Made by a program: the position numbers and the translations under genes. This document shows, piece after piece, positions 5,915 to 64,000 of a stretch of DNA of 64,000 nt. This DNA comes from Bacteroidales bacterium (lineage in GTDB: Bacteria; Bacteroidota; Bacteroidia; Bacteroidales; UBA932), in contig JAGBAO010000013.1 in assembly GCA_017938925.1 (NCBI GenBank), positions 1 through 64,000 of the forward strand, written 5' to 3'. The notes under the pieces were generated by a model that saw nothing but the letters and a program-made list of their open reading frames with translations, had not been told where the DNA came from and searched no databases. How positions within the stretch are numbered: the stretch's first letter is position 1; each line of letters begins with the position of its first letter.

Positions 5915-7918
5915 TTATTTTGCCACTCTTACGCAGCGGACGCACCCACCATGACGAGCATTCCACTTATATTCAGTAGAGGAACTTGTCGTACTAAAAG
6001 TTGAACTATTAGTCCAATATAGTCTGCAACCCATTCCCTGCTGAGCATTATTTGGATCAACCTCATCATACCAATAAACACTATATGAGCCAGTACCGGC
6101 CATTTTCTTAGCCTGTCCATCATTACCGTTTCTCATTCCTGCTCTAGGAAAAATCACTGATTGAGCAAGTGTAACTTGAGCAATGCTTGTATTTGTCCAA
6201 TTTGCAGCCTCGGGGTCTGAGGCGTCATATAGCTTTTGCATTTCTGATTTATTGATAACTCTGTAACCATACGGGCAAGGATTCGCGTTGGTTCGTGATG
6301 TCCAATTTGTTCCATCAGTACTATAGCCAGGGACCTTTCCCTCGTCAGCCATTGTTATAGGATATTTTGAACCTAACTCTTGAGTCACTCCATTGAAATC
6401 ACCCAAATATCCCCATGTTAAAACATTATTTATCGACGCTCCTGTATTTATAACAGACTTTTGACTCGCACCGGAAAATATTGTAGTTGATGTTTCATCA
6501 GTCGCTCCCCGTGAGCCAAGAATTGGATCTTTTCTACCCCACTGATAAAAATGTCCCTTACCACAAATCAAGGTTGAATTTAATTCTCCAGCTGAAGCTA
6601 CATCAAATTTATACGCTGCACCCAGATTGCGATCCATAATCACAACACCTTCCGCCATAATATCTTGAAGTCCTGATGTAAGCCATATATTCCAAGTCCA
6701 AGAAAGGTCATTATCTGCATCAACTACTCCCAAGATCACATTACCGTATTTATATCCCGATGGTATTGTAAAGAACAGTTTTCCATTTTCCATCTTGATA
6801 TCATTCATCATGGTTGTTGGAAGCGTTTCTGCAGTTGTACATGCATCACCAGAAGCCCACACCCAAGTTGCAGAAGTTCCGGTCACTTCCTCACCGTTCG
6901 GTTTCTTGGCATCAAACATATAAGTACCGGCAGACTGAACTACATAGCAGTTTGCATACTGCTTGTTCGGCGAAAGATTGATTGCCGGATCAGCCGCAAA
7001 TGTCAACGCAGAAGGAGTGATCTCCGCACGCTTGATAACCAGAGAATTGTTTGTCCCTACCTTCATGATATTGCCATCCATATCCTTGAACGTGAATACA
7101 AGATTATGAGTTCCCTCAGGAAGTCCGAAATACATGTCGGTTCCATTTTCCTCCAGCTGCACACCGCCAACCGTGACAGTCTCTTCATCTACAGTCTCCT
7201 TTGAAGTATATGTATATGTCAGCATATAATCCTTATTAGGATCGCCTGTTCCAAGCACGGTCATGAGCGGCTTTTCAGATGCATATGGCACCGAAGCGTT
7301 GCCGCTGATGATCTTGTCGGACTCAATCTTGACCTGAGCTATTTTAGCTGTACCCTTTACTGTCAGCTTGAGAAGTCCGCAGGTGTGCTTGAAACGAAGC
7401 AGCTCACCCTGCTGGGCATACGCAATGATCGGAAGAGAGGCAGGAAGGAAGCTATCTGTTCCATTCGGGCCGGCAACCATACGTATCTTAACCGTACCTT
7501 CACCATATCCTTCTCCTTCCGGTTCGAATTCCGCCGTAGCTGTACTTCTGTTAGGATATGAAGCTACGATTGTCTCAACTGTCGATGATGGAGTGTACTT
7601 ATTATCTGCATCCTCATCTGCAGTTATCCATTCAAAAACCGCTATACCATCTTCTACCGATGTACATTTGTATTTACAGTGACCATGATGATTGGTTTCA
7701 TCAACGATGCCATTGAACACAGAAATGACATCCCCCACTTCAAAAGAAAGCTGGGTGCCGTTAAGGTCCATCTTGGTCTCAGGGTCAATCACAGCCTTGA
7801 GTACAGGATAGTTGTTCTCCACTACGTCCTGAACAGGCTCATCAATGTGCTGCTCCTTGTTACATGCAGCTAAAGTCATGGCTGCTACAGCCAGAATTGA
7901 AATATAAATCTTCTTCAT
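5915..7918 (-). CDS. Fimbrillin-like lipoprotein with C-terminal FISUMP domain
   Basis: A surface lipoprotein of about 667 residues (lipobox LAAC). The N-terminal half has the fimbrillin (Mfa-like) pattern. The C-terminal part, from about residue 395, is a FISUMP domain (Fibrobacter succinogenes major paralogous, C-type-lectin-like), with MDRNLGA, FYQWGRKDP, NPCPYGYRV and a final CVRCVRV strand. The start at 7918 is chosen because GGAGG lies 8 nt upstream; the longer ATG at 7933 overlaps the previous stop (TAATG). It is probably a binding or adhesive component of the SusC/D system. Ligand unknown. Confidence 0.8.
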   Translation of the reverse strand: MKKIYISILAVAAMTLAACNKEQHIDEPVQDVVENNYPVLKAVIDPETKMDLNGTQLSFEVGDVISVFNGIVDETNHHGHCKYKCTSVEDGIAVFEWITADEDADNKYTPSSTVETIVASYPNRSTATAEFEPEGEGYGEGTVKIRMVAGPNGTDSFLPASLPIIAYAQQGELLRFKHTCGLLKLTVKGTAKIAQVKIESDKIISGNASVPYASEKPLMTVLGTGDPNKDYMLTYTYTSKETVDEETVTVGGVQLEENGTDMYFGLPEGTHNLVFTFKDMDGNIMKVGTNNSLVIKRAEITPSALTFAADPAINLSPNKQYANCYVVQSAGTYMFDAKKPNGEEVTGTSATWVWASGDACTTAETLPTTMMNDIKMENGKLFFTIPSGYKYGNVILGVVDADNDLSWTWNIWLTSGLQDIMAEGVVIMDRNLGAAYKFDVASAGELNSTLICGKGHFYQWGRKDPILGSRGATDETSTTIFSGASQKSVINTGASINNVLTWGYLGDFNGVTQELGSKYPITMADEGKVPGYSTDGTNWTSRTNANPCPYGYRVINKSEMQKLYDASDPEAANWTNTSIAQVTLAQSVIFPRAGMRNGNDGQAKKMAGTGSYSVYWYDEVDPNNAQQGMGCRLYWTNSSTFSTTSSSTEYKWNARHGGCVRCVRVAK

Positions 7919-7932
7919 GTTCATTTCCTCCA

Positions 7933-8124
7933 TTAGTTCCAGCCATTGAATTCATCTCCTAAAGTCAAGGTCTCGATAAAGTTGCTCTGAGGGTCATCAC
8001 TTGAACAGAGAACACCCTGAAGTTCAAGTTCTGCAACCTCTACAGCCGGAGTCTTATACTCAACAGCCGTGTCGTTGCCAGTTTTGATTTTCATAACGAT
8101 ATTGGTTTTTAGTTGTTGTTTCAT
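7933..8124 (-). CDS. 63-residue Bacteroidales peptide with VLCSS motif
   Basis: A small protein with the pattern YKTPAVEVAELELQGVLCSS then a short acidic, aromatic tail ending EFNGWN. Short proteins with the same 'Y-[ED]-[TS]-P ... V-L-C' layout commonly accompany fimbrillin or surface-lipoprotein genes in Bacteroidales; their function is unknown to me. There is no signal peptide. The ATG overlaps the SGNH stop (ATGA) and the stop overlaps an upstream ATG of the fimbrillin gene (TAATG), so translation is coupled on both sides. An internal ATG gives a 53-residue form. Confidence 0.65.
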   Translation of the reverse strand: MKQQLKTNIVMKIKTGNDTAVEYKTPAVEVAELELQGVLCSSDDPQSNFIETLTLGDEFNGWN

Positions 8125-9185
8125 TCAAACATTTCTGGAATATCCTTCTTCATCTGCTCCCAGAGTTTCTCCGCTCCTGCACGCGTAGGATGGACATTAT
8201 CCTTGCTCAGGCAATTGTCTGCCCAGCTGCCGTCCGGGGTGCTCTCAACAGCCTCAGCCCAGTCCAGGACACGGCATCCTCTCTCACGAGCATATTCTAT
8301 CTTCTTGGCATGCACACGCTTAGGAACGTACGGCACGGCCGTGATGACTGGAGTGATTCCTTTTCTCTTGCATGTGGTGAGGAAATCTTCCACACAGTCC
8401 ATCCATGAAGCATCCGCCTCATCACCGTCATTCTTATCATTCATTCCAAGCATCCATACAGCATACTTAGGTGTCCCGAACTTAAGGTCTTCAAAGAAGG
8501 CAGTCAGCAGATCTGCACTCTTGCCCCCTGGAAGATTGTCCACCATGTAGTTATCGAAACCAGCCAGGCGTGCATGATAGAGCCAGCGTGCCTGACCGTA
8601 ACTTGCATAACTGTCTCCATAGAACCAGAAATCCTTGTCAGCGTTGCAGCGGTCAAAAGAAAGGTTCACATCGGCAGGCGCTTCGCCTCCGTTACGGGCG
8701 AATGCAGCACCGCCTCCGAACCACTTGATGGTCCTTGACCACTTTCCGGTGGAAGTCGACACCTCCACAAAGGCGGTAGTGAAATCAGCTGTCACCTTGA
8801 TGCTGAGGTTTTCCCTGATATCCAGTCCATGCCTATATCCTTCACGGATATAGTTTCCAAGTTTCTTCTTCTTTTTTCCGTCCTGGTCCTTGTATTCCAC
8901 ATAATTGCATTCGCGCACAATCACATGGACCGGAGTGACCTCGATCCAATGGCCTCTGTAAACATCTTCACCGCCACGTCCCACCAAAAGAGATGAGAAG
9001 TCAGTGAATGTAAAATCGGCACTGAGAACAGTATTATATCTGACATAGTTCTCTCCCATTGCAAGAGTCGCTCCGGGCTTCAGGGTCGCCGTCTTAGACT
9101 CGACCGCTGCTGACAGCGTAGCCGCAGAGGCAAGGAGCCCTGCGACAAACACTGAAATGACTGTAATCCTTTTCATATAAATCAT
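8121..9185 (-). CDS. Secreted SGNH/GDSL-family hydrolase
   Basis: About 354 residues with an N-terminal signal peptide, a beta-rich N-terminal domain (about 30-170) and an SGNH hydrolase domain. The four blocks are visible: GDSY with nucleophile S182, the glycine block PGGKSAD, the asparagine block LGMND (N239) and the terminal DNVHP with D319 and H322. Likely a carbohydrate or lipid esterase (for example deacetylase) in the periplasm. ATG at 9185 overlaps the stop of the Ig-like gene (ATGA); an in-frame ATG at 9176 is an alternative with a cleaner signal peptide. Substrate unknown. Confidence 0.85.
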   Translation of the reverse strand: MIYMKRITVISVFVAGLLASAATLSAAVESKTATLKPGATLAMGENYVRYNTVLSADFTFTDFSSLLVGRGGEDVYRGHWIEVTPVHVIVRECNYVEYKDQDGKKKKKLGNYIREGYRHGLDIRENLSIKVTADFTTAFVEVSTSTGKWSRTIKWFGGGAAFARNGGEAPADVNLSFDRCNADKDFWFYGDSYASYGQARWLYHARLAGFDNYMVDNLPGGKSADLLTAFFEDLKFGTPKYAVWMLGMNDKNDGDEADASWMDCVEDFLTTCKRKGITPVITAVPYVPKRVHAKKIEYARERGCRVLDWAEAVESTPDGSWADNCLSKDNVHPTRAGAEKLWEQMKKDIPEMFE

Positions 9186-10594
9186 TGCCAATCTTTGAAT
9201 TCTTCACCTTCCGTCAGGTCTTCGACAGTCTCATTCACATCCTGGTCAGTCACCCTGACAAGACAGCTTGCAGAGACAACCTTCTCATTCTGCAGAGTAG
9301 GATCGTCTATACCTGTTATCGTTACGGTTATCGTTGCTTTACCCACCTTGACTCCCGTAACCTTGCCTTCCACAACAGTTGCTACAGAAGAATCTGATGT
9401 CTCCCACTGAATCTTGATGATCTTTGCGCCTGGGGTCACAGACGGAACGAGCATTATGTCCTTACCGATACGCACCACATATTTTTCATCAGGGAAAGAC
9501 ACAGAATCAATCGGGCCGCTTCCTGGAAGCACCGTCACCTGGCAAGTGGCCTTATATTCTCCTTCCACTGTAGTCACAGTGATGATTGCACTTCCCTCGC
9601 TATATCCTACTATTTCTCCTGTCTGACTGACGTTCACGATTTCAGGCGCAGATGAAGTCCATACCAGTCCGGTCTCATATGCATCGGACGGAAGAACAGA
9701 CGCCTGCATCTGCATGCGCTGGAAGAGGGCGAGTTCCACTTTCGAAGCCGCAAGTTCAACCCCGGTCACATGCGCCCTGACCTCAACCTGAGCTTCAGCC
9801 TTTGCACCGGCATAGCGGTCCTGTGCAGTGATCGCGACGGTTCCGGTCTTCAGTGCCTTGACCTTTCCCGTGGTCTGGTCCACAGAAACCCTTGACGGGT
9901 CTGATGAGGTCCACACAATGTCCTTATGAGTCACAGCTGCCGGTATATCAGCTGTAAGCTGGAGTTCTTCATCAAGCCAGAGCACAGACTTGGCCGGCAC
10001 GATCTTGAATGACTTGACAAAATTGCCGACCTCAACAACGCACGAATCACAGATATCCGGATTCACGTCAAGCACTGCCTTGACCATAGTCTTGCCTATA
10101 CCCCTTGCTTCAAGTGCACCATTGCTGACATAGACTACAGACGTATCTGCCGAACTCCACAGGAACTTAGGCTTATAAGCATTAGACGGATGCACATTGA
10201 CCTTGATAAGGGCATTCTTATTGGCAGCATCAAGAGTAAGAAGAAGATGATGCACATCAAACGATGCGGAATCCACCTCTGTGATCACTCTGACAGCACA
10301 GCCCTTGGTCAGCCCATCTGCCTTGGCATATATATAGGTCAGCCCGCCGCAGACACCATGGACAAGGCCGGACGCATCAACTGTAGCGATGCTGTCATTC
10401 TGCGAACTCCAGACAATCTGCGCAGTGGAGCCTTCCGGCTTGAGTGTCGCAGTCAGAAGAGTATCACCTCCTTCCGGAATGGACAACTCCGTAGAACTGA
10501 GGACAATGCCTGTCACCTTGACATCCTGCACGCATGAACTGAATGCAAGCAGCGCCAATGCGGAAAATAATGTATTTACGATAAGTCTTTTCAT
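9182..10594 (-). CDS. Lipoprotein with tandem bacterial Ig-like group 2 domains
   Basis: A 470-residue lipoprotein (lipobox FSSC, about residue 21) containing about four to five Big_2 (bacterial Ig-like group 2) repeats, each with the hallmark W-(S/T)-S-(S/N/Q)-(D/A)...V..V...G.V.....G.A.IT pattern. Such proteins act as extended surface spacers or glycan-binding partners of SusC/D pairs. The C-terminal tail EDLTEGEEFKDWQ resembles the end of the 63-residue peptide two genes on. The start overlaps the previous stop as TGATG. Probably a surface-exposed binding protein (SusE/F-like position). Confidence 0.85.
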   Translation of the reverse strand: MKRLIVNTLFSALALLAFSSCVQDVKVTGIVLSSTELSIPEGGDTLLTATLKPEGSTAQIVWSSQNDSIATVDASGLVHGVCGGLTYIYAKADGLTKGCAVRVITEVDSASFDVHHLLLTLDAANKNALIKVNVHPSNAYKPKFLWSSADTSVVYVSNGALEARGIGKTMVKAVLDVNPDICDSCVVEVGNFVKSFKIVPAKSVLWLDEELQLTADIPAAVTHKDIVWTSSDPSRVSVDQTTGKVKALKTGTVAITAQDRYAGAKAEAQVEVRAHVTGVELAASKVELALFQRMQMQASVLPSDAYETGLVWTSSAPEIVNVSQTGEIVGYSEGSAIITVTTVEGEYKATCQVTVLPGSGPIDSVSFPDEKYVVRIGKDIMLVPSVTPGAKIIKIQWETSDSSVATVVEGKVTGVKVGKATITVTITGIDDPTLQNEKVVSASCLVRVTDQDVNETVEDLTEGEEFKDWQ

Positions 10595-50866: not shown

Positions 50867-51877
50867 ATGATTAGAGAAGTAAAATTCGAAAGCCAGGATC
50901 GCCGTATGGCTCAGATCCTCGCAGTGCTCAACGAGAACGGTATCGCTTCTGTAGAAGAGGCAAACGCAATCTGCGACCAGTATGGTCTCGACCCTTATAT
51001 GACATGTGAGGAGACTCAGCCGATCTGCTTCGAGAACGCAAAGTGGGCTTATGTAGTGGGATGTGCAATCGCTCTCAAGAAGGGTTGCAAGAACGCAGCT
51101 GAGGCAGCTGAGGCCATCGGTCTCGGTCTCCAGGCATTCTGTATCCCTGGTTCGGTTGCTGACGACCGTAAGGTTGGTCTCGGCCACGGTAACCTCGCAG
51201 CAATGCTCCTCCGCGAGGAGACAAAGTGCTTCGCATTCCTCGCAGGTCACGAGTCATTCGCAGCAGCTGAGGGTGCAATCAAGATCGCAGCAAAGGCTGA
51301 CAAGGTCCGCAAGGAGCCTCTCCGCGTGATCCTCAACGGTCTCGGCAAGGACGCAGCTCAGATCATCGCCCGCATCAACGGCTTCACATACGTACAGACT
51401 GAGTTCGACTACTTCACAGGTGAGCTCAAGGAAGTACGCCGCATCCCTTACAGCGACGGTCCGCGCGCAAAGGTCAACTGCTACGGTGCAGACGACGTAC
51501 GCGAGGGTGTAGCAATCATGTGGCACGAGGGTGTTGACGTATCAATCACTGGTAACTCAACCAACCCTACACGTTTCCAGCACCCTACAGCTGGTACTTA
51601 CAAGAAGGAGCGCGTGCTCGCAGGCAAGCCATACTTCTCAGTAGCATCAGGTGGTGGTACAGGCCGTACACTTCACCCAGACAACATGGCTGCCGGTCCT
51701 GCTTCATACGGTATGACAGACACCATGGGCCGTATGCACTCTGACGCACAGTTCGCAGGTTCTTCATCAGTTCCAGCACACGTTGAGATGATGGGATTCC
51801 TCGGCATCGGTAACAACCCTATGGTAGGTTGCACTGTTGCTTGCGCTGTTGACGTTGCTACTGCGCTTAATAAGTAA
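50867..51877 (+). CDS. GGGtGRT protein (function unknown)
   Basis: A 336-residue protein named after its signature, here ASGGGTGRTLHP near residue 265. Conserved-looking cysteines occur early (ICDQYG, MTCEE, PICFEN, VGCAI, KKGCKN) and late (VGCTVACAVD). An SD-like AGGAGG lies 7-12 nt before the ATG. It shares the same extreme codon bias as the scaffold gene. The tie to a Fe-S scaffold and the cysteines suggest a role with Fe-S clusters, but this is inference. Confidence 0.85.
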   Translation: MIREVKFESQDRRMAQILAVLNENGIASVEEANAICDQYGLDPYMTCEETQPICFENAKWAYVVGCAIALKKGCKNAAEAAEAIGLGLQAFCIPGSVADDRKVGLGHGNLAAMLLREETKCFAFLAGHESFAAAEGAIKIAAKADKVRKEPLRVILNGLGKDAAQIIARINGFTYVQTEFDYFTGELKEVRRIPYSDGPRAKVNCYGADDVREGVAIMWHEGVDVSITGNSTNPTRFQHPTAGTYKKERVLAGKPYFSVASGGGTGRTLHPDNMAAGPASYGMTDTMGRMHSDAQFAGSSSVPAHVEMMGFLGIGNNPMVGCTVACAVDVATALNK

Positions 51878-51899
51878 TCTGACTTACTTTATAATAGAT

Positions 51900-52219: not shown

Positions 52220-53425
52220 ATGGAGAAACATTGCAGTACAATCAGCTTTTGGTTGAAGAACAGAACAGACAAAAACGGGAAGTCTCCTATCACTATGATC
52301 ATTGGTGCAAATGGAGAAAGAGCAGAATTTCAGACAGGTAGAAAGATTGAACCTGAGAATTGGGATAATGGCAAGCAACAGGCAAAGGGCAAGACATCAG
52401 AAGCCAAGCTCCTCAACGCTTACCTGAACCAACTGAGGAACAAGGTCTATCTGAAAGAAATTGAACTGATGCAAAGGGGCTTCCTCATTACTGCGAAACT
52501 TCTGCGTGATGCAGTAACGGATAAGGTTGAAGCCCTTAACGAAAAGACCTTGTTCCAAGTCTTCACGGAGCATAACGAGGAACAGAGAAAGCTGGTAGGT
52601 AAAGGACTATCAAAGGCAACCTATTGGGTGTCTGAATACACCTACAGATTATTAAAGGAGTACGTGGAGCAGAAATACAAGCGATCAGACCTGTTCCTGC
52701 GTGAACTCAACATAGGGTTCATTCAGTCCTTTCACACCTTTCTGTTAACAGACAGAGGAATGTCGCAGAACTCCTCTACCAAGCATTTGAAACTGTTGAA
52801 GAAGATTATCAATATAGCTATAGCGAACTCCTATATGACATTCAATCCGTTTCTTACATATAAGGTAGAGCGTGAACCTGTGGAGATAGATTTTCTTGAT
52901 GATGAAGAACTCCGCAAGATCATCAACTTTGACACCCCTCTGCCAAGACTGGAGCGGGCTAAAGACATGTTCTTGTTCGGATGTTTCACAGGCTTATCAT
53001 ATATTGACATCAAGACATTGGCTCCTGAACATTTTGAAAAGGATGGTGCAGGGCGAATATGGATCAAGAAACGCAGAGTAAAGACAGGCGTACTGTCAAG
53101 GATTCCGCTACTCCCTGTTGCGAAACTGATATTGGAGAAATACAAAGGAGGTGACAAGCTCCTGCCAATCCAAGACCCAGCAGACATCAATAAATATCTG
53201 AAAGACATTGCCATACTCTGCAAGATCAACAAGCGGATTACATTCCATACAAGCCGCCACACCTTTGCCTCTACAGTGACATTAGCTAACAACATATCGC
53301 TGGAAGTGGTCTCAAAGATGATGGGGCATACCAATACACGAATGACCACGCATTACGCGAAATTGGTTGACAAGTGCATTGCTGAGCAGATGGATAAACT
53401 TACTGATACGTTCTCTATGGCATGA
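52220..53425 (+). CDS. Tyrosine recombinase/integrase, IntDOT-like
   Basis: A 401-residue integrase with the three-domain layout of Bacteroidetes conjugative and mobilizable elements: arm-binding domain (about 5-90), SAM-like core-binding domain (about 105-200) and catalytic domain. Catalytic residues: H343-x-x-R346, H370 and nucleophile Y379. The first catalytic arginine position reads CFTGLS with S260, as in IntDOT of CTnDOT, where serine replaces arginine. It marks the likely left end of the island and is followed by its own terminator. Confidence 0.92.
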   Translation: MEKHCSTISFWLKNRTDKNGKSPITMIIGANGERAEFQTGRKIEPENWDNGKQQAKGKTSEAKLLNAYLNQLRNKVYLKEIELMQRGFLITAKLLRDAVTDKVEALNEKTLFQVFTEHNEEQRKLVGKGLSKATYWVSEYTYRLLKEYVEQKYKRSDLFLRELNIGFIQSFHTFLLTDRGMSQNSSTKHLKLLKKIINIAIANSYMTFNPFLTYKVEREPVEIDFLDDEELRKIINFDTPLPRLERAKDMFLFGCFTGLSYIDIKTLAPEHFEKDGAGRIWIKKRRVKTGVLSRIPLLPVAKLILEKYKGGDKLLPIQDPADINKYLKDIAILCKINKRITFHTSRHTFASTVTLANNISLEVVSKMMGHTNTRMTTHYAKLVDKCIAEQMDKLTDTFSMA

Positions 53426-55948: not shown

Positions 55949-56548
55949 ATGACCCAGTACAGAAAAATAACTGAGCTTCTGGCAGGGAGATTAAAGCCTA
56001 AAGAAGCATACTTGTTCTATTGTCTGGCTCTGAAGTCTGACTTTATAACTAATGAATCATATATCACGCAGGAAAGTTTAGCTAAGTTTTATGGAATCAA
56101 GGATGTTGACCAGATCCGTGAATGGCTATATATGTTCCAATCAAAAGGCTTGCTGACTATTATAAAAAGTAAAGTCAAGGGGCGATACGGAACATTCCGT
56201 AAATGCAAGTACATATTGAACGCAGAACACTACAATCTGGTTTCTGACCTCTTGAAAGAAGAACCTATCAGCAGTCAGTTGAAAGGATTTCTGATATTGC
56301 TGAAATGCAAATGTCTGAATTGTACGAATACAACAAAATTCAGTCAGAACCAATTAGCTAAAGAATTGGGAATATCCGCAGGGGCAATTTCCCAATATAT
56401 GAAAGATGCGATAGATAATGCTTATGTAAGTAAGGATGAGAAAGGAATCCACTTGTTGAGAGAGGATATTTTTCTAAAGGCTAAGACAGAATTTCGTAAA
56501 GTCAAACCAGCAAAGCCTAAAGAAAAATTAGTTATCCTCATGGACTGA
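55949..56548 (+). CDS. Helix-turn-helix protein, possible replication/transfer regulator (199 aa)
   Basis: It appears to hold two winged-helix segments: residues about 35-95 (YITQESLAKFYGI, DQIREWLYMFQSKGLLTI) and 125-165 (FSQNQLAKELGISAGAISQYMKDAID). Such tandem wHTH proteins in mobile elements include replication initiators and transcription regulators; no specific family was recognised. It is rich in Lys, ends basic, and has no signal peptide. Confidence 0.7.
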   Translation: MTQYRKITELLAGRLKPKEAYLFYCLALKSDFITNESYITQESLAKFYGIKDVDQIREWLYMFQSKGLLTIIKSKVKGRYGTFRKCKYILNAEHYNLVSDLLKEEPISSQLKGFLILLKCKCLNCTNTTKFSQNQLAKELGISAGAISQYMKDAIDNAYVSKDEKGIHLLREDIFLKAKTEFRKVKPAKPKEKLVILMD

Positions 56549-56948: not shown

Positions 56949-57887
56949 ATGAACGAAATTACCTTAGATTCACCAAGCGTGAACTTCCTTGAAGCGAACA
57001 CCAACGCTATCACTCTCGAAGAACTTGCGGAACAGTGCGTAGTGCCTACTTGGGCTAACCAAGAGCTGACTATCTCACATCAGGACTTCATTCAGACCGT
57101 ACACGATGCCGCTTGCAACATCTTCGCAGGAGAGACCGTGAACACTCCGGAGATTCGTGTCTCTCACATTGTCCGTGGTCGCATCCCATCTGCACTTGGG
57201 AAGCGTTCAAGCGAACTTCTTGAATCAGAGAAGACACAATTTTATCAACGGTTGGCGTTTGCCTTTACTATCCCTAGCATACATGAGTGCATTGAGGGTC
57301 AGCGTCTGGAACTCTGCATTGGAGGTGTCCGCAACTATTCTGATTTGAACCTCTACCGTGCCAATCGCGGAATGGAGAAGTTCACCATCTTCATTGGCTG
57401 GCGTGTGAATGTCTGCTCTAATCAGGTTCTCACAGGTGAGGGCGTGAGCTTGTCTCTTGAAGTGATGTCAGTACATGACCTTTATAAAGGTGTGATGGAG
57501 TTGTTCAACGGTTTCAACATGGATAGAGACATTGAACTGTTGCAGACCCTTACGCAGACAAGGCTCACAGAATCGCAGTTCGCACAGATCGTTGGCAGGA
57601 TGAGACTTTATCAGGCATTACCTAGCTACTTGCAGCGTAGAGTTCCGAAGCTTCTCATCACTGACAGTCAGATTAACAACGTGTGCCGTGACTACTACAA
57701 CAATCCGAACTTCGGAGCGAAGGACAGCACGATATCCATGTTTGACTTCCACAATCTGCTCACGGAAGCGAACAAGAGCAGCTACATAGACAGCTATGTT
57801 CAGCGTGGCATCAATGCTACAGAAGTGACCGTAGGAATCTGCAAGGCTTTGCAGGGAGATTCTGAATACTCTTGGTTCTTGGGCTAG
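56949..57887 (+). CDS. DUF3871-family protein
   Basis: A 312-residue protein matching the DUF3871 family (PF12987), typical of Bacteroidetes conjugative and mobilizable elements and usually near RadC. Visible family features: a conserved ETVNTPEIRVSHIVRGR block, GIRNYSDLNLY-like strand, and FIGWRVNVCSNQ. Function unknown; it has a helical C-terminal region after about 180. A terminator separates it from radC. Confidence 0.85.
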   Translation: MNEITLDSPSVNFLEANTNAITLEELAEQCVVPTWANQELTISHQDFIQTVHDAACNIFAGETVNTPEIRVSHIVRGRIPSALGKRSSELLESEKTQFYQRLAFAFTIPSIHECIEGQRLELCIGGVRNYSDLNLYRANRGMEKFTIFIGWRVNVCSNQVLTGEGVSLSLEVMSVHDLYKGVMELFNGFNMDRDIELLQTLTQTRLTESQFAQIVGRMRLYQALPSYLQRRVPKLLITDSQINNVCRDYYNNPNFGAKDSTISMFDFHNLLTEANKSSYIDSYVQRGINATEVTVGICKALQGDSEYSWFLG

Positions 57888-57954: not shown

Positions 57955-58413
57955 ATGACAATGACAACAGATTTCAAGGTGGCAGAGGTGCAACTGTCCT
58001 ATAAAAACAATGTTCCGTACGATAAGCGGACAAAGGTGCGTGATGCGAAGGACGCATACAAGGTGATGCTGAAAACCCACAATGATGATACACTTGACTA
58101 TATAGAGACTTTCAAGGTTCTCTATCTGAATCAGAACAATCACGTTCTTGGTTGCAGAACCATTTCTGAGGGAGGGCTGGCTAGTACCTGTTGCGATGTC
58201 CGTACAATCCTGCAAGGTGCGCTACTGACCAATGCTGTAGCTATTATTCTCGCACACAATCACCCAAGCGGAAATGTCAAGCCAAGCACGGAGGACATCA
58301 ATACCACAGCAAAGATTACCAAAGCAGCTAAACTCTTAGATATTTCTGTGCTAGACCATATCATCTACACACGGGAGAATTGCTACAGTTTCGCTGATGA
58401 TGGAGAAATCTAA
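57955..58413 (+). CDS. RadC-family JAB/MPN-domain protein
   Basis: A 152-residue RadC-like protein consisting of the JAB1/MPN metalloprotease-like domain only. The zinc motif is complete: HNHPSGNVKPSTED (H-x-H-P-x7-S-x2-D). It is carried by many mobile elements and phages; despite the name, a DNA-repair role is not established. It is shorter than chromosomal RadC, lacking the helix-hairpin-helix N-terminus. An in-frame ATG two codons downstream is an alternative start. Confidence 0.88.
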   Translation: MTMTTDFKVAEVQLSYKNNVPYDKRTKVRDAKDAYKVMLKTHNDDTLDYIETFKVLYLNQNNHVLGCRTISEGGLASTCCDVRTILQGALLTNAVAIILAHNHPSGNVKPSTEDINTTAKITKAAKLLDISVLDHIIYTRENCYSFADDGEI

Positions 58414-58523: not shown

Positions 58524-59111
58524 ATGAGCTTGAAATACTCAACCACAACCGCAGACTATCTTGTCTGGTCTGATGCGATGAACCTTATCCGCAAATTAGC
58601 TAAAGATGGTAACTACAAGATATCGCTTCTTATCGCTCTTGGCTGCTTCACAGGATTACGAATCTCTGACATCCTAGCTCTGACATGGGAACAGATTCTG
58701 AACACCGAGGAATTTACCATAACGGAGAAAAAGACAGGAAAGAAAAGAGTTCTCCGCTTGAATCCTCAACTGCAACAGCATATACAGGAGTGTCACGAAC
58801 ATATCCAACCTTTGAAAGATACCTCATACATCTTGGTAAGTCAGAAAGGCACAGTCTTTACGATCCAGCGAATCAACGTAATCCTGAAAGAGATAAAGAA
58901 GAAATACCGCTTGAAAGTGAAGAACTTCAGCTGTCACTCACTCCGCAAGACCTTTGGCAGACAGGTTTACAACATGAACAGCGAAAACTCCGAACTTGCC
59001 CTAGTCAAGCTGATGGAACTGTTCAACCATAGCTCTGTAGCCATTACCAAAAGATACCTAGGTTTGAGACAGGAGGAGATTCTACAGACTTATGACTGTT
59101 TGACATTCTGA
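58524..59111 (+). CDS. Minimal tyrosine recombinase (catalytic domain only)
   Basis: A 195-residue site-specific recombinase lacking arm- and core-binding domains. All canonical catalytic residues are present: R46 (FTGLRISDI), H138 and R141 (HSLRKTF), H169 (FNHSS) and Y178. Compact recombinases of this type in Bacteroidetes act on element or invertible DNA. It is flanked on both sides by perfect inverted repeats with spacers of 40-41 bp (58434-58491 and 59120-59176). Confidence 0.9.
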   Translation: MSLKYSTTTADYLVWSDAMNLIRKLAKDGNYKISLLIALGCFTGLRISDILALTWEQILNTEEFTITEKKTGKKRVLRLNPQLQQHIQECHEHIQPLKDTSYILVSQKGTVFTIQRINVILKEIKKKYRLKVKNFSCHSLRKTFGRQVYNMNSENSELALVKLMELFNHSSVAITKRYLGLRQEEILQTYDCLTF

Positions 59112-59516: not shown

Positions 59517-60041
59517 ATGGCAAATTTGATCACACCTCAGAATTTATGGTCTGAGATGCTGAAATTCAAACATTTGTTAGGAGTCAAACATGGTTACACT
59601 ATTCCGTTCTTAGTTGGTGCATATTATAAATATGGTTTTATTAAAGAGAATGAATTGTTGTCTTCCATTTGCATAGAACGCCTGATAAACAACATATTAG
59701 AATCCATATCACCTGAACGCCCCGTAAAGATTTTTAACTGCGAGAATCTCGAGCATGAACTTGTTTTGCAATATTTAGCAACAGGTCTTAATGAGGAAGA
59801 AGTAAAATATCTAATGAGTTGGGAAAGCAATATTCATAATAAGATATATTGGCATTACAGGGAAACCGAGATTACAGATTTTGATTCTTTGATACAATGG
59901 ATATGGAATAAACCTACTACAAGAGGGAACATCCCATATAGTGAATTAATTTCCTCTAAACGCTTTAGCTGTGATATGGGTTCATGGGATAACTTTAATG
60001 AAAAAGAAGAAAGTTTCCTAAATAATCTGAACACACATTAA
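59517..60041 (+). CDS. Hypothetical cargo protein (174 aa)
   Basis: No family recognised. It is soluble and helical, rich in Trp/Tyr near residues 120-150 (KIYWHYRETE, LIQWIWNKP). The gene is distinctly A+T rich, as are those after it. It begins the cargo part of the island, 45 bp past the U-rich end of the structured RNA. Confidence 0.65.
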   Translation: MANLITPQNLWSEMLKFKHLLGVKHGYTIPFLVGAYYKYGFIKENELLSSICIERLINNILESISPERPVKIFNCENLEHELVLQYLATGLNEEEVKYLMSWESNIHNKIYWHYRETEITDFDSLIQWIWNKPTTRGNIPYSELISSKRFSCDMGSWDNFNEKEESFLNNLNTH

Positions 60042-60074: not shown

Positions 60075-60632
60075 ATGGCAAGGTTACCAAAAGATTTTAT
60101 TAGTAGGATATATGGAATTGAAGGAAGTACGAGATGGGATCCATATAAAGATTTAAATGAAGTGTTAAACATAATAGGAATTATGGCTAAACGAGATAAG
60201 ATTCCATATGCAAGAGTACTCATACCTCCCTCAAAAGTAAAAACATATTATTATGAGGATATGGAATATTATGTTCCAAATTATTGGAGGGATTGTCTGT
60301 ACGAAGATTTGGAAACAGGAGATTATTATATCATAAGTCCAGACCCGAAGAATAAAAATTACCCTTCGAATAGTGTTTATTCTTGGATTGCATTTAAGGT
60401 CACTGGACTTACAGATGGAATCCGTTACTGTAGCAGAGATGATTCCGGTAAACTCACAAAGGAAATATTGTACCATTCAGGAAGTTTCATTGACCTAATC
60501 AAAAGATGCAACCTAAATGAAGTGTTAGACACATTAGCAAAGAACCAGAAGCCAATTGTTATCAAAGTTTTGCGCAGACTATATAGTCCTGAACGAGAAG
60601 ATAGGGGTGCTGTTTGTCAGTTTGATATTTAG
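60075..60632 (+). CDS. Hypothetical cargo protein (185 aa)
   Basis: No family recognised. It is soluble with many Tyr/Asp pairs and a central beta-rich part (VKTYYYEDMEYYVPNYW ... DYYIISPDPKN), and ends in a basic helix (VIKVLRRLYSPERED). It lies 33 bp after the preceding gene and is probably transcribed with it. Confidence 0.65.
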   Translation: MARLPKDFISRIYGIEGSTRWDPYKDLNEVLNIIGIMAKRDKIPYARVLIPPSKVKTYYYEDMEYYVPNYWRDCLYEDLETGDYYIISPDPKNKNYPSNSVYSWIAFKVTGLTDGIRYCSRDDSGKLTKEILYHSGSFIDLIKRCNLNEVLDTLAKNQKPIVIKVLRRLYSPEREDRGAVCQFDI

Positions 60633-60677: not shown

Positions 60678-60869
60678 ATGACAAGAAAAGCCAATAAAGC
60701 CATTGTCAAAAAGTTACTTACTTTTAGTCTGTTGTTTTTGAACATTCTGCCGATACTCGCATATCCTCGTGATGATACGGATAGCGGAACATCTGGCATC
60801 ACCTTAATTATAGTAATTGTTCTGTTCATTATCGGGGCAATGAATGCAAAGAAGGACAAAAGGAAATAG
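60678..60869 (+). CDS. Small membrane protein (63 aa)
   Basis: A 63-residue protein with a basic N-terminus, one hydrophobic segment (about 13-30; it may be a signal peptide), a short acidic loop (PRDDTDSGTSG), a second membrane helix (about 42-56) and a basic KKDKRK end. The ATG at 60678 replaces an in-frame TTG two codons earlier. It lies 5 bp before the PLD gene. Single-pass or two-pass membrane partners are common beside toxin or defence genes, but the role here is unknown. Confidence 0.6.
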   Translation: MTRKANKAIVKKLLTFSLLFLNILPILAYPRDDTDSGTSGITLIIVIVLFIIGAMNAKKDKRK

Positions 60870-60874
60870 GATAT

Positions 60875-61642
60875 ATGGCGAACAATACTGAAGTCATTTT
60901 TGAAAACATAGAGCAACGCATTATCAAAGAAATCAGCGAGGCTCATTATGCGATATTCGTTTCTGTTGCGTGGTTTACAAACAAGAAGTTGTTTAATGCC
61001 TTACTTAAAAAGGCAAAAAATAACTGCTATGTCTCGATTATCATTCAGTTGGATGAGATTAACTCACAGTGCGGAATAGATTATAATCAGATTCAGATCG
61101 GGCGATCAGAATGCTTCAAGATTTCTAAGGACGCTGAACTTTTGCATGATAAATTTTGCGTAATCGATTTCCAAAAAGTAATCACAGGGTCTTACAACTG
61201 GACTTATAAAGCATCACAGAATAGTGAGAACATTCTTATTTTGAATGACCCATCTGTTGCCTCTCAATATATAAGCAGGTTTGAACAACAGAAAGCGAAG
61301 TTCCAAGGTTCAAGCATTCAACCAAAGTCTGTAACATCAGTTAGCTCCAATATCGTTAATATTAGTTCCCCAACGACTACAACAATTCAGAAGAACGCAG
61401 ATATCAAAGAAACGCCTAAACCCAGACTTTGCACATTTTGTAAAAAGGAGCTAGGATATAATGATTCATACTGCCAACACTGCGGGACACGTCACGATGG
61501 ATTGCCAAATAAATCTAGGTTCGTAGTGACTTGCAAAAAATGTTCACGAAAACAGGAGGAAGCTCTAATTGATGCCGTGTGTACAAAGTTTTGTAATTAT
61601 TGCGGTAGTGATCAATTAGAATGGAAGTACAACAAATGCTGA
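60875..61642 (+). CDS. Phospholipase D-like nuclease with C-terminal zinc ribbons
   Basis: A 255-residue protein. Residues about 5-145 form one PLD-like domain with a single HKD motif (H91, K93, D98) followed by GSYNW, as in dimeric nucleases of the Nuc/Zucchini type. A low-complexity Ser/Thr linker (about 150-180) leads to two zinc ribbons, CTFC/CQHC and CKKC/CNYC. It is cytoplasmic. It begins 5 bp after the small membrane protein and ends 11 bp before a second zinc-ribbon gene. Probable DNA or RNA cutting enzyme; defence function is inferred from the neighbouring AbiGi-like gene. Confidence 0.8.
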   Translation: MANNTEVIFENIEQRIIKEISEAHYAIFVSVAWFTNKKLFNALLKKAKNNCYVSIIIQLDEINSQCGIDYNQIQIGRSECFKISKDAELLHDKFCVIDFQKVITGSYNWTYKASQNSENILILNDPSVASQYISRFEQQKAKFQGSSIQPKSVTSVSSNIVNISSPTTTTIQKNADIKETPKPRLCTFCKKELGYNDSYCQHCGTRHDGLPNKSRFVVTCKKCSRKQEEALIDAVCTKFCNYCGSDQLEWKYNKC

Positions 61643-61653
61643 AATAATGAATT

Positions 61654-62853
61654 ATGCCAAAAATAATTATAGATTATAAATATGAATTATGGACTGGCGT
61701 AAAAGCCCATTGTCCAATATGCAACAGAACATTCACCGGATGGTACTGTCCTACTTGTGGCTTACCCAAAAAGAATAGCAAATATGCTCCACACAAATAC
61801 GGGGGGCTTCATAATTGTGGTCATTACCATTTTCGTCCAGAGTTCACTTCTTTTGAGAAATTTCAGTTATGTTGCGATTGCTATGCTGCCAATCCATCAG
61901 ATGCAAAATACTGTAAGAACTGTGGTAAGAAAATAACATCTTGGTTGTCTAAAGACGCTCATGGGTGGGTAGATCTTGGTTTATCGGTGCTATGGTCAAC
62001 AGAAACTATGGAGGGTTTATATTTTTGGGGTGATTGCTCAGAGTTAAATCATTCCACAGACATTAGTTGTTTTGAGAAAAATAGGATAAATAAAAAAAAC
62101 TATCTAGGAGACGTAGATAGTGTTGGTTATGATATAGCGACACAAAAATGGGGTGAAAGGTGGAGAACTCCAACAAAAGAGGAGTTTGAAGAATTAATGA
62201 TAAAATGCAAATGGGAAAAATGCATTGACCCCAAATCGGATCAACATGCATTAAAAGTAATTGGTCCCAACGGCAAATCAATCATCTTGCCTGTAACAGG
62301 ATATGCAGGATGTAATCAAAAGCCTAAGATAGAAAGGAATAGCTTATCTGGCTTATTAGGAATACCAACAGTGCCTATCTCCCCTGAATCAATTTATTCG
62401 ACGTGCCGTTTTTGGACATCATCCGAGGATGAGACAAACCCAGAACGCGCTTTTGTTTTTTCATATAATGGATATGGTAGTTTTACCAAAACGCTTACTG
62501 CTAAAGAGAAAAAAGAGATAGAGATTGAAAACGCTAGATATGCTAGAAAGTCAGAATCGAATCTTAATTTTTATTTGGATTCCTGGTTGAACCCCGAAGA
62601 AATGATGCGCAAACAGCGCCAAGAAAGACAAAAGGAAGAAGAAAGAGAAATACTACGAGCTATGGGAGACGATACTCAAGAAAGAGCGGACAACATTAAA
62701 AAAGACCTCGAAAGAAGACGAAAATTATGGTTAGACACGCCTGTAAAATTTGAATATAATAATAAATTAAGAAATACACTGAGGCCTTTAAGGAAACACT
62801 CTGGTTATGCTATACGTCCTGTAGCTGATAAAAAATGGCAAGGCAAATTATAA
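61654..62853 (+). CDS. Zinc-ribbon protein with FISUMP-like domain and coiled coil
   Basis: A 399-residue protein with no signal peptide. Residues 1-100 carry paired-cysteine knuckles (CPIC/CPTC and CCDC/CKNC). About 105-290 and the extreme C-terminus (GYAIRPV) form a FISUMP/DUF1566-like domain of C-type-lectin-like fold (WVDLGLSVLWSTE, RTPTKEEFEEL, FWTSSED, LPVTGYAG). A long charged coiled coil (about 295-360) is inserted before the last strand. A cytosolic FISUMP protein is unusual, since these domains are mostly at the cell surface. Likely a partner of the PLD-zinc ribbon protein. Confidence 0.7.
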   Translation: MPKIIIDYKYELWTGVKAHCPICNRTFTGWYCPTCGLPKKNSKYAPHKYGGLHNCGHYHFRPEFTSFEKFQLCCDCYAANPSDAKYCKNCGKKITSWLSKDAHGWVDLGLSVLWSTETMEGLYFWGDCSELNHSTDISCFEKNRINKKNYLGDVDSVGYDIATQKWGERWRTPTKEEFEELMIKCKWEKCIDPKSDQHALKVIGPNGKSIILPVTGYAGCNQKPKIERNSLSGLLGIPTVPISPESIYSTCRFWTSSEDETNPERAFVFSYNGYGSFTKTLTAKEKKEIEIENARYARKSESNLNFYLDSWLNPEEMMRKQRQERQKEEEREILRAMGDDTQERADNIKKDLERRRKLWLDTPVKFEYNNKLRNTLRPLRKHSGYAIRPVADKKWQGKL

Positions 62854-62881
62854 CAAACAACTGAACTGCAATTTTCATAAT

Positions 62882-63685
62882 ATGGGATTAAGTTCTAATA
62901 TCTTGTGGCATCAAACCCAAAAGGATGCTTTGAAGAAAATATTAAAACAAAAAAGTTTCAGATATTCATATAGCTTGGAGCATGTTGAAGCTAAGAATGA
63001 TACATTGGAATGTGCTTTTCCAATGCTTAGTCTTTGCGATATCCCTTTTGCTGACATAGAAGATTATTTAACTAAATATGGAGGCAACTCTATTGGATTG
63101 TCAAGAGAGTGGGGGAAAAGGCACGGAATAACACCTGTTGTTTATTGTGACCCTTCGTCAAGTTTATTAAATGACAGCCTTGGTCTTATTCGTCATAATA
63201 TGGATAATGGACTTGATATATTTGTTGCAAAATTATTCTCACATATTAAAAACCATGAGGGTAAATTGCCAAAATACAATTATAAAAAGTACAGATTTTA
63301 TGATGAGCGTGAAGTGCGAATAACTCCTTCGCTGGATGATTTGGATAGATTCGGGCACAGTCCTGTTCTGCTGAAGCGTGAGTACACAACCTATAAAGCC
63401 CGCAATAGTAACAGGTCATTACTGTCAAACAAATTGACCATTCCATTCTCCTATAATGACATTCGATATTTTATATTAAGAAATGAAGATAGCATATCTG
63501 AAATTAAGGAGATTCTGTCAAAGGAAATAAACTTAAGCGAATCAAATATTGGGTTCTTTACCATTAAACAAGTTAGAGAAGACATCATAGGAGCAAATCA
63601 TAACGAAACTGATACATTAGTAAAAATTAACATCAATAATAATTTAGACAACTTCCCTCCTATTGTTGAGAAAATAAATCTATAG
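62882..63685 (+). CDS. AbiGi-like abortive-infection protein
   Basis: A 267-residue protein resembling the AbiGi family (PF10899), one half of the lactococcal AbiG phage-resistance pair. The N-terminal pattern LWHQTQKDALKKILKQKSFRYSYSLE, then AFPMLSLCDIP and YGGNSIGLSREWGKRHGITPVVYCD, fits the family. The usual partner AbiGii is not in view. It lies 28 bp after the zinc-ribbon/FISUMP gene and 7 bp before a lipoprotein gene. Confidence 0.75.
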   Translation: MGLSSNILWHQTQKDALKKILKQKSFRYSYSLEHVEAKNDTLECAFPMLSLCDIPFADIEDYLTKYGGNSIGLSREWGKRHGITPVVYCDPSSSLLNDSLGLIRHNMDNGLDIFVAKLFSHIKNHEGKLPKYNYKKYRFYDEREVRITPSLDDLDRFGHSPVLLKREYTTYKARNSNRSLLSNKLTIPFSYNDIRYFILRNEDSISEIKEILSKEINLSESNIGFFTIKQVREDIIGANHNETDTLVKININNNLDNFPPIVEKINL

Positions 63686-63692
63686 GAACATT

Positions 63693-64000
63693 ATGATGAA
63701 AAGACTTTTCTTCCTGCTTGCATTGATAAGCCTTTTAGCCTGCAACTGCCAGAATAATTCAAACAGAAGAAACATAATTGATGCTCCTGCTATAGATACT
63801 ACTTCTTATGCCGCAACGAATGAAGATGCAGAAAATGAAGTTACTGAGGATAGTACAAGGGAAACCCTCAATGACATTCGTTTTGATGGATGGACTAAGA
63901 AGGAGTGGGCTGACAATGAATATATCCGTGCAGTCAGGAAATACATAGATGCATATAATAAGGGAGAAATTGAAAATCCCGATCTTGATAAATACAAACA
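63693..64000 (+). CDS. Lipoprotein, truncated by the window end
   Basis: The 5' part of a gene open to the last base (about 102 codons). A signal peptide with lipobox LLAC is followed by an Asn/Glu/Asp-rich linker and a helical segment (WTKKEWADNEYIRAVRKYIDAYNKG). Second ATG at 63696. It follows the AbiGi-like gene by 7 bp. No family recognised from the visible part. Confidence 0.7.
   Translation, partial: MMKRLFFLLALISLLACNCQNNSNRRNIIDAPAIDTTSYAATNEDAENEVTEDSTRETLNDIRFDGWTKKEWADNEYIRAVRKYIDAYNKGEIENPDLDKYK

Follow-up and report, generated by a model that had tools for sequence, protein, structure and literature searches.

The window analysed here, namely bases 1-64000 of a 505-kb contig (C16) from a Bacteroidales bacterium, ends within what is most naturally read as an integrated mobile element (51714-70064). 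The cargo of this element includes adjacent genes for a PLD nuclease, for a 399-aa protein with zinc ribbons and a C-type-lectin-like domain, and for an AbiGi-family protein (Table 1). This cargo is best explained as two unrelated, probably defence-type modules, an effector-sensor pair made up of the PLD and 399-aa proteins and a stand-alone AbiGi protein predicted to be an ADP-ribosyltransferase, a reading that is given about an even chance of being correct. In the initial annotation the three genes formed the core of a candidate defence cassette, flanked by a small membrane protein and a lipoprotein, and this core was not recovered by BLASTP in any relative locus. The originally proposed cassette matters less because it is not conserved; the ADP-ribosyltransferase fold predicted for AbiGi and a recurrent pairing of PLD-J proteins with adapter-bearing sensors both go beyond that earlier reading and deserve follow-up.

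Gene order and conservation of the three-gene core

The open reading frame (ORF) calls bore out the order of the five genes and the gaps of 5, 11, 28 and 7 bp between them. The genes are real but the boundary drawn around them proved arbitrary, as the same-strand run spans 59517-69434, its gaps reaching about 170 bp, and the five genes therefore constitute no natural unit. Promoter and terminator scans gave results at about the level of shuffled sequence.

ORFs from contig positions 58000-77000, with element genes before 58000 lying outside the comparison, were compared by BLASTP (E <= 1e-3) with those of 139 relative loci (46 + 20 + 73). Homologues of two element genes were found together in 0/139, a count in which partners can be missed because many of these loci end at contig edges. 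Such a failure to co-occur is the outcome that the initial annotation had named as refuting its cassette. Wide flanks were used for 15 of the 16 AbiGi places (G480 was left out), 32 PLD places and 14 FISUMP loci, and a weak match in L152, between its SIR2 gene and a gene outside the element, was not counted. No AbiGi homologue was detected in the PLD loci in these BLASTP comparisons. By profile alone, two loci (L088 and L184) hold PLD together with a remote Fib_succ_major relative of the lectin domain in the window, a co-occurrence unseen by BLASTP.

It is consequently quite improbable that PLD, the zinc-ribbon-FISUMP protein and AbiGi act together as one undescribed defence system of three or five genes. 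The close same-strand spacing and the relationship of both PLD and AbiGi to defence proteins would suit such a system, but besides the lack of any BLASTP co-occurrence, AbiGi has no constant neighbour in 47 loci, and similar spacing goes on into unrelated cargo on both sides.

The PLD protein and its paired relatives

The PLD domain matched PLDc_2 (3.5e-21) and includes an intact HKD motif (HDKFCVID), with H91, K93 and D98 invariant in alignment A3. Single-HKD enzymes of the Nuc type work as dimers, and the PLD protein would likewise be a nuclease acting as a dimer. It resembles DrmC of DISARM (3.2e-8) and DpdK of the Dpd system (2.2e-6), but it falls far below the NCBI equivalog cut-offs, and no DISARM or Dpd partner was present among the neighbours scanned.

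The closest relatives in the order belong to six genomes and share 43-53% identity over residues 4-160 (best E 5.2e-44). These six proteins are about 450 aa long and carry a coiled region and a J-domain (coil-J); the DnaJ match in the L088 protein (8.8e-6) is just under the cut-off, and this protein is 50% identical to the window PLD (E 7.3e-41). With its own genome counted, PLD relatives were present in 2/199 family, 89/393 order and 16/395 phylum genomes (the last at E <= 1e-12), many of the weaker order-level matches being distant PLD proteins. Matches were also obtained in 24 plasmid records, one of them in Hymenobacter, and in two phage records. The Hymenobacter match, together with gene types such as DUF3871, points to Bacteroidota as the source of the window. 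Scans of viral contigs returned none with the single window protein and 28 loci with an alignment.

Genes neighbouring the PLD-coil-J relatives encode TPR, WG, LRR, Fib_succ_major, gyrase-type propeller and primase-exonuclease proteins, many of which share an N-terminal stretch, here designated the adapter. For a profile of this stretch, nine neighbours from seven loci were used. When each was left out in turn, 6/9 were recovered at E <= 1e-3, L091 reached only 0.042, and the LRR and gyrase-type partners were missed. Applied to unseen loci fetched for a coil-J match (L181-L192), the profile detected 9/146 ORFs (E <= 1e-3), each of them next to a coil-J gene. Extending the search to 936 ORFs (the same 146 plus those of viral-contig loci) gave ten at E <= 0.01, comprising these nine and a WG-repeat protein next to a PLD-J gene on a viral contig (L227). 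Among all 1795 ORFs, the nine profile members and ten further ORFs match the adapter, each on the same strand as a coil-J gene and one to three genes away from it.

An adapter-bearing partner occurs at 14 of the 21 coil-J loci; the pairs are described from L087-L092, L142, L181, L184-L189 and L227. The adapter profile gave no match at seven of the 21 (L226, L183, L187, L102, L136, L182 and L191). Of these, L226 lies next to an LRR gene, the genes of L102 and L136 seem by eye to be truncated, and L182 and L191 have no partner. Neither report of PLD-J/adapter pairs nor published name for them was found in titles or the beginnings of abstracts among the open-access matches listed.

FISUMP-adapter genes, arranged in tandem, are paired with a PLD-J gene at the two independent loci L088 and L184. 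From the 77 FISUMP matches in ten coil-J genomes, and taking about 3500 genes per genome, a FISUMP neighbour would be met by chance at about 0.4% on average and at 2-3% in the richest genomes (28 matches), as a rough estimate. A lipoprotein-like FISUMP gene also lies 0.6 kb from the adapter gene in L092.

Several other arrangements were seen around these genes. At L183 and L187 (about 6300-9550) the PLD-J gene is followed by a vWA-type gene and then a phosphatase-type gene, which is a TerY-P-like arrangement; the phosphatase-type gene matches PP2C_2 in L187, and that of L183 has no Pfam match at 0.001. The coil-J region occurs without a PLD part in 5/21 loci (L185, L186, L188, L189 and L191), and as four of these five adjoin adapter proteins, their effector may have been lost or may be encoded at another site. 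In L137 (3596-8225) the genes around PLD encode a PP2C and two kinases, with matches to PADLOC PP2C and STK_OB.

The 399-aa zinc-ribbon and lectin-like protein

Four CxxC pairs fall within the first 90 residues of the 399-aa protein (two N-terminal ribbon pairs, Cys 20-90). The C-type-lectin-like domain begins at about residue 101 and is interrupted at about 280-360 by an insert that is charged and helix-like, with a closing stretch at about 385-393. As no signal peptide was recognised by eye, the protein is probably cytosolic.

The FISUMP label assigned initially holds at the level of profiles and fails at that of the Pfam model. No Fib_succ_major (PF09603) match was obtained, and the nearest family, Lcl_C, is below its cut-off (E 0.0035, 18.1 vs 34.9 bits). 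Lcl_C is nevertheless found at E <= 0.01 in 12/12 members of the alignment, window protein included, and hhalign of this 12-member profile against true Fib_succ_major proteins gave 92% probability (E 5.8e-7), which supports homology. A search of the lectin domain against solved structures returned nothing at E <= 0.01.

Relatives of the 399-aa protein are present in 38/149 family genomes, its own included, and nearly all matches start at the lectin domain. Plasmid records contained none and phage records one. The viral-contig scan gave one ribbon-only match, as did the genome-contig scan, in this case from Ferroplasma.

Passages of PMC10907252 describe lectin-type antigen sensors in conflict systems, and the pair proposed here would follow a similar logic. 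The 399-aa protein is like the C-type-lectin sensors diversified by diversity-generating retroelements, as presented in parts of PMC10907252 and PMC4159848, in having a DUF1566/Lcl_C, Fib_succ_major domain as the proposed ligand-binding part. It is unlike them in that no template repeat occurs in the 77 kb searched and the sole RVT_1 match in the genome is below the cut-off and on another contig, and variation driven by such a retroelement was rejected for this gene. In L104 (7329-9044), inspection by eye suggests a kinase-like protein in which a membrane stretch precedes a C-terminal domain of FISUMP-like type.

Zinc ribbons and the proposed effector-sensor pair

The window PLD carries zinc ribbons in place of the coil-J region of its kin, and its neighbour carries zinc ribbons in place of the adapter; neither coil-J nor N-terminal adapter is present in either of the two window proteins. 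A tail with four CxxC occurs in none of 68 PLD relative ORFs, and one with two occurs in L098 only. N-terminal ribbons were found in 0/16 FISUMP relatives, two of which have cysteines in a signal-like stretch. In L098 (1708-8465) the PLD gene stands beside two large genes that appear by eye to be methyltransferase-like and ATPase-like.

The strongest case for a link between the two proteins comes from the ribbons that both carry. The first module (60875-62853) would represent a zinc-ribbon variant of the PLD-coil-J and adapter-sensor pairs, with a FISUMP-type neighbour as in L088 and L184. In such a pair sensing would fall to the C-type-lectin-like domain that the 399-aa protein displays in the cytosol, the zinc ribbons of both proteins would hold the pair together or position it on nucleic acid, and a ligand bound to the lectin domain would free or assemble the nuclease.

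Two results count against this pairing. The alignment score between the ribbons of the PLD and 399-aa proteins was reached by 104/500 shuffles in which Cys was fixed, and a second copy of the ribbon pair was not found among the relative loci. The similarity is thus within chance, and the idea that the ribbons are homologous tags is not supported. The partnership first proposed from the shared ribbons is supported by the position of the nearest PLD kin beside cytosolic sensor-type partners, including FISUMP proteins in two loci, and by ribbons on both window neighbours that the relatives lack. Passages of PMC7159879 describe effector-associated domains on neighbouring genes in conflict systems as closely related. 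The window pair is comparable to the coupling presented there in that a sensor and an effector encoded side by side share one type of small non-enzymatic domain, but its ribbons show no similarity beyond chance and no core gene of the ternary systems, as given in those passages, was seen nearby.

It is rather unlikely that the PLD protein, the FISUMP-like protein and a solitary AbiGi are chance neighbours on a mobile element without a functional link. FISUMP-bearing partners beside PLD kin in two independent loci are not expected under this explanation, nor are double ribbons in both window neighbours and in none of the relatives examined; it is favoured by the failure of any pair from the window to appear a second time, by the mixed nature of the genes in the co-directional cargo run of about 10 kb, and by ribbons that are not alike beyond chance.

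The AbiGi-family protein

The assignment to AbiGi is firm, with PF10899 at 5e-20 (over the cut-off) and PADLOC AbiGi at 3.5e-29, and its score against the NCBI AbiGI equivalog model is far below the cut-off (28.2 vs 300 bits). The predicted structure of the protein (pLDDT 86.7) has an ADP-ribosyltransferase fold, for which DarT of DarTG and Tpt1/KptA are the top matches. A His on the first strand of AbiGi and a Glu on a later one, both conserved, may correspond to those of these proteins. Across 48 AbiGi ORFs, H10 is conserved in 47/48 and E142, E144 and R146 in 48/48, the comparison with DarT being one of fold and strand position. Unlike the fold, the sequence of AbiGi gave no match to DarT or Tpt1; a sequence search against solved structures had no match at E <= 1, and no DarG-type macrodomain match was present among the element genes scanned. 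In titles and the beginnings of abstracts among the open-access matches listed, no prior proposal of AbiGi as an ADP-ribosyltransferase was found.

The second module (62882-63685) would then consist of an enzyme like DarT that uses NAD+ to ADP-ribosylate nucleic acid or protein in the course of infection, and both modules may be cargo protecting the host of the element or the element itself. If AbiGi is such an NAD+-using enzyme, this would explain why it stands alone.

Any one neighbour family is found at 4/47 AbiGi loci at most, and a stand-alone AbiGi without a constant partner is the usual state. BREX or restriction genes lie beside at least 4 of the 14 AbiGi genome loci, a number that remains after one row (L086, a 505-aa LysM-type protein by eye) was dropped as spurious. 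With its own genome counted, relatives of the protein occur in 5/199 family genomes, one of which (G063) is spurious, and in 12/393 order genomes; viral contigs yielded none with the single window protein and 32 loci in the alignment scan. An AbiGi-family gene lies within a BREX cluster, between pglX and pglZ, in L077 (1-14000), and a tandem pair of AbiGi-family genes is found on a single viral contig (L200, 4045-5834).

AbiG of Lactococcus (AbiGi/AbiGii) likewise has an AbiGi-family protein, but here no PF08843 (AbiEii/AbiGii) gene occurs on contig C16, other AbiGii models not having been searched. The original statement that AbiGi occurs without AbiGii is therefore valid for the contig, and two PF08843 genes are located on other contigs (C21 and C5) of this 92%-complete genome. 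The defence role first assigned to the locus gains some support for AbiGi from its neighbours elsewhere and from the predicted fold, which are consistent with a part in defence.

An antitoxin role, in which AbiGi keeps the PLD nuclease, or some other toxin of the cargo, in check and the ADP-ribosyltransferase-like fold is catalytically dead or coincidental, is improbable. Antitoxin is the Pfam label of the family, and passages of PMC3985639 report that AbiGi alone was not toxic in a screen in E. coli. The absence of a common partner among AbiGi relatives and of an AbiGi homologue from PLD loci argues against such a role, and a near-invariant H10 with invariant E142, E144 and R146 points to an active site more than to a scaffold for binding.

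Kinship of AbiGi with DUF2971 is not claimed, as hhalign, run with no more than three rows for DUF2971, returned 2%. DUF2971 genes whose N-termini resemble AbiGi were observed near the PLD loci L093 and L100.

The preferred reading of two separate modules can be extended to the families concerned. It is possible, at somewhat less than even chance, that two generalisations hold jointly: that the whole AbiGi family comprises stand-alone DarT-like ADP-ribosyltransferase effectors, carried by phages or lying next to BREX and restriction systems, and that PLD-coil-J (or coil-J only) proteins of Bacteroidota and some viral contigs form a modular conflict system with exchangeable adapter-linked sensors (FISUMP lectin, TPR, WG, LRR, gyrase-type propeller), the window having ribbons swapped for the J and adapter parts on both partners. 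If the fold prediction holds, AbiGi, which has been known as a phage-resistance family since the 1990s and bears the antitoxin label, could be tested as an enzyme that uses NAD+. The PLD-adapter-sensor pairs would exemplify, in compact form, how one bacterial effector is combined with many interchangeable recognition domains, among them lectin-type domains, which are known elsewhere as hypervariable sensors.

The mobile element

Direct repeats of 166 bp enclose the 18.35-kb element, the G+C content of which is 38.9%, compared with 50.5% before and 51.2% after it. The direct repeats, the low G+C content and the integrase at the left repeat are the reasons for reading 51714-70064 as an integrated element with the five genes as part of its cargo.

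Table 1 Features of the element and its cargo, in positions of the contig (the window ends at 64000)
Feature	Position	Strand	Basis or remarks
attL-type direct repeat	51714-51879	.	3' end of GGGtGRT gene (50867-51877)
Second repeat copy	69899-70064		beyond window; 160/166 bases identical to 51714-51879
Tyrosine integrase, full-length	52220-53425	+	adjoins attL; Arm-DNA-bind_5, Phage_int_SAM_5, Phage_integrase; PHROG integrase 4.6e-41
Winged-helix, replication-initiator-like protein	55949-56548	+	weak RepL and HTH matches
DUF3871 protein	56949-57887	+	PF12987 2e-142
RadC-like JAB protein	57955-58413	+	PF04002 3.6e-39
Second, short tyrosine recombinase	58524-59111	+	PF00589 4.4e-20
Two family-less cargo genes	59517-60041, 60075-60632	+	start of same-strand run; no Pfam/NCBIfam match at E <= 1, no PHROG match at E <= 0.001
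Small membrane protein	60678 (ATG) or 60672 (TTG) to 60869	+	sequence; no family above cut-off
PLD nuclease, 255 aa	60875-61642	+	single HKD motif (about residues 16-138); double zinc ribbon at C-terminus with four CxxC (186-243)
Zinc-ribbon/C-type-lectin-like protein, 399 aa	61654-62853	+	no signal peptide by eye
AbiGi-family protein, 267 aa	62882-63685	+	predicted ADP-ribosyltransferase (DarT/Tpt1-like) fold
Lipoprotein	63693-64253	+	ORF; extends past window end at 64000
Further cargo	65838-68312		SprT-like metallopeptidase; weakly, sigma-like and M50B-like membrane protein

A second genome of the genus (G986, C19:3320-3487) also has a C-terminal GGGtGRT fragment, which may have been left by a different element at this site.

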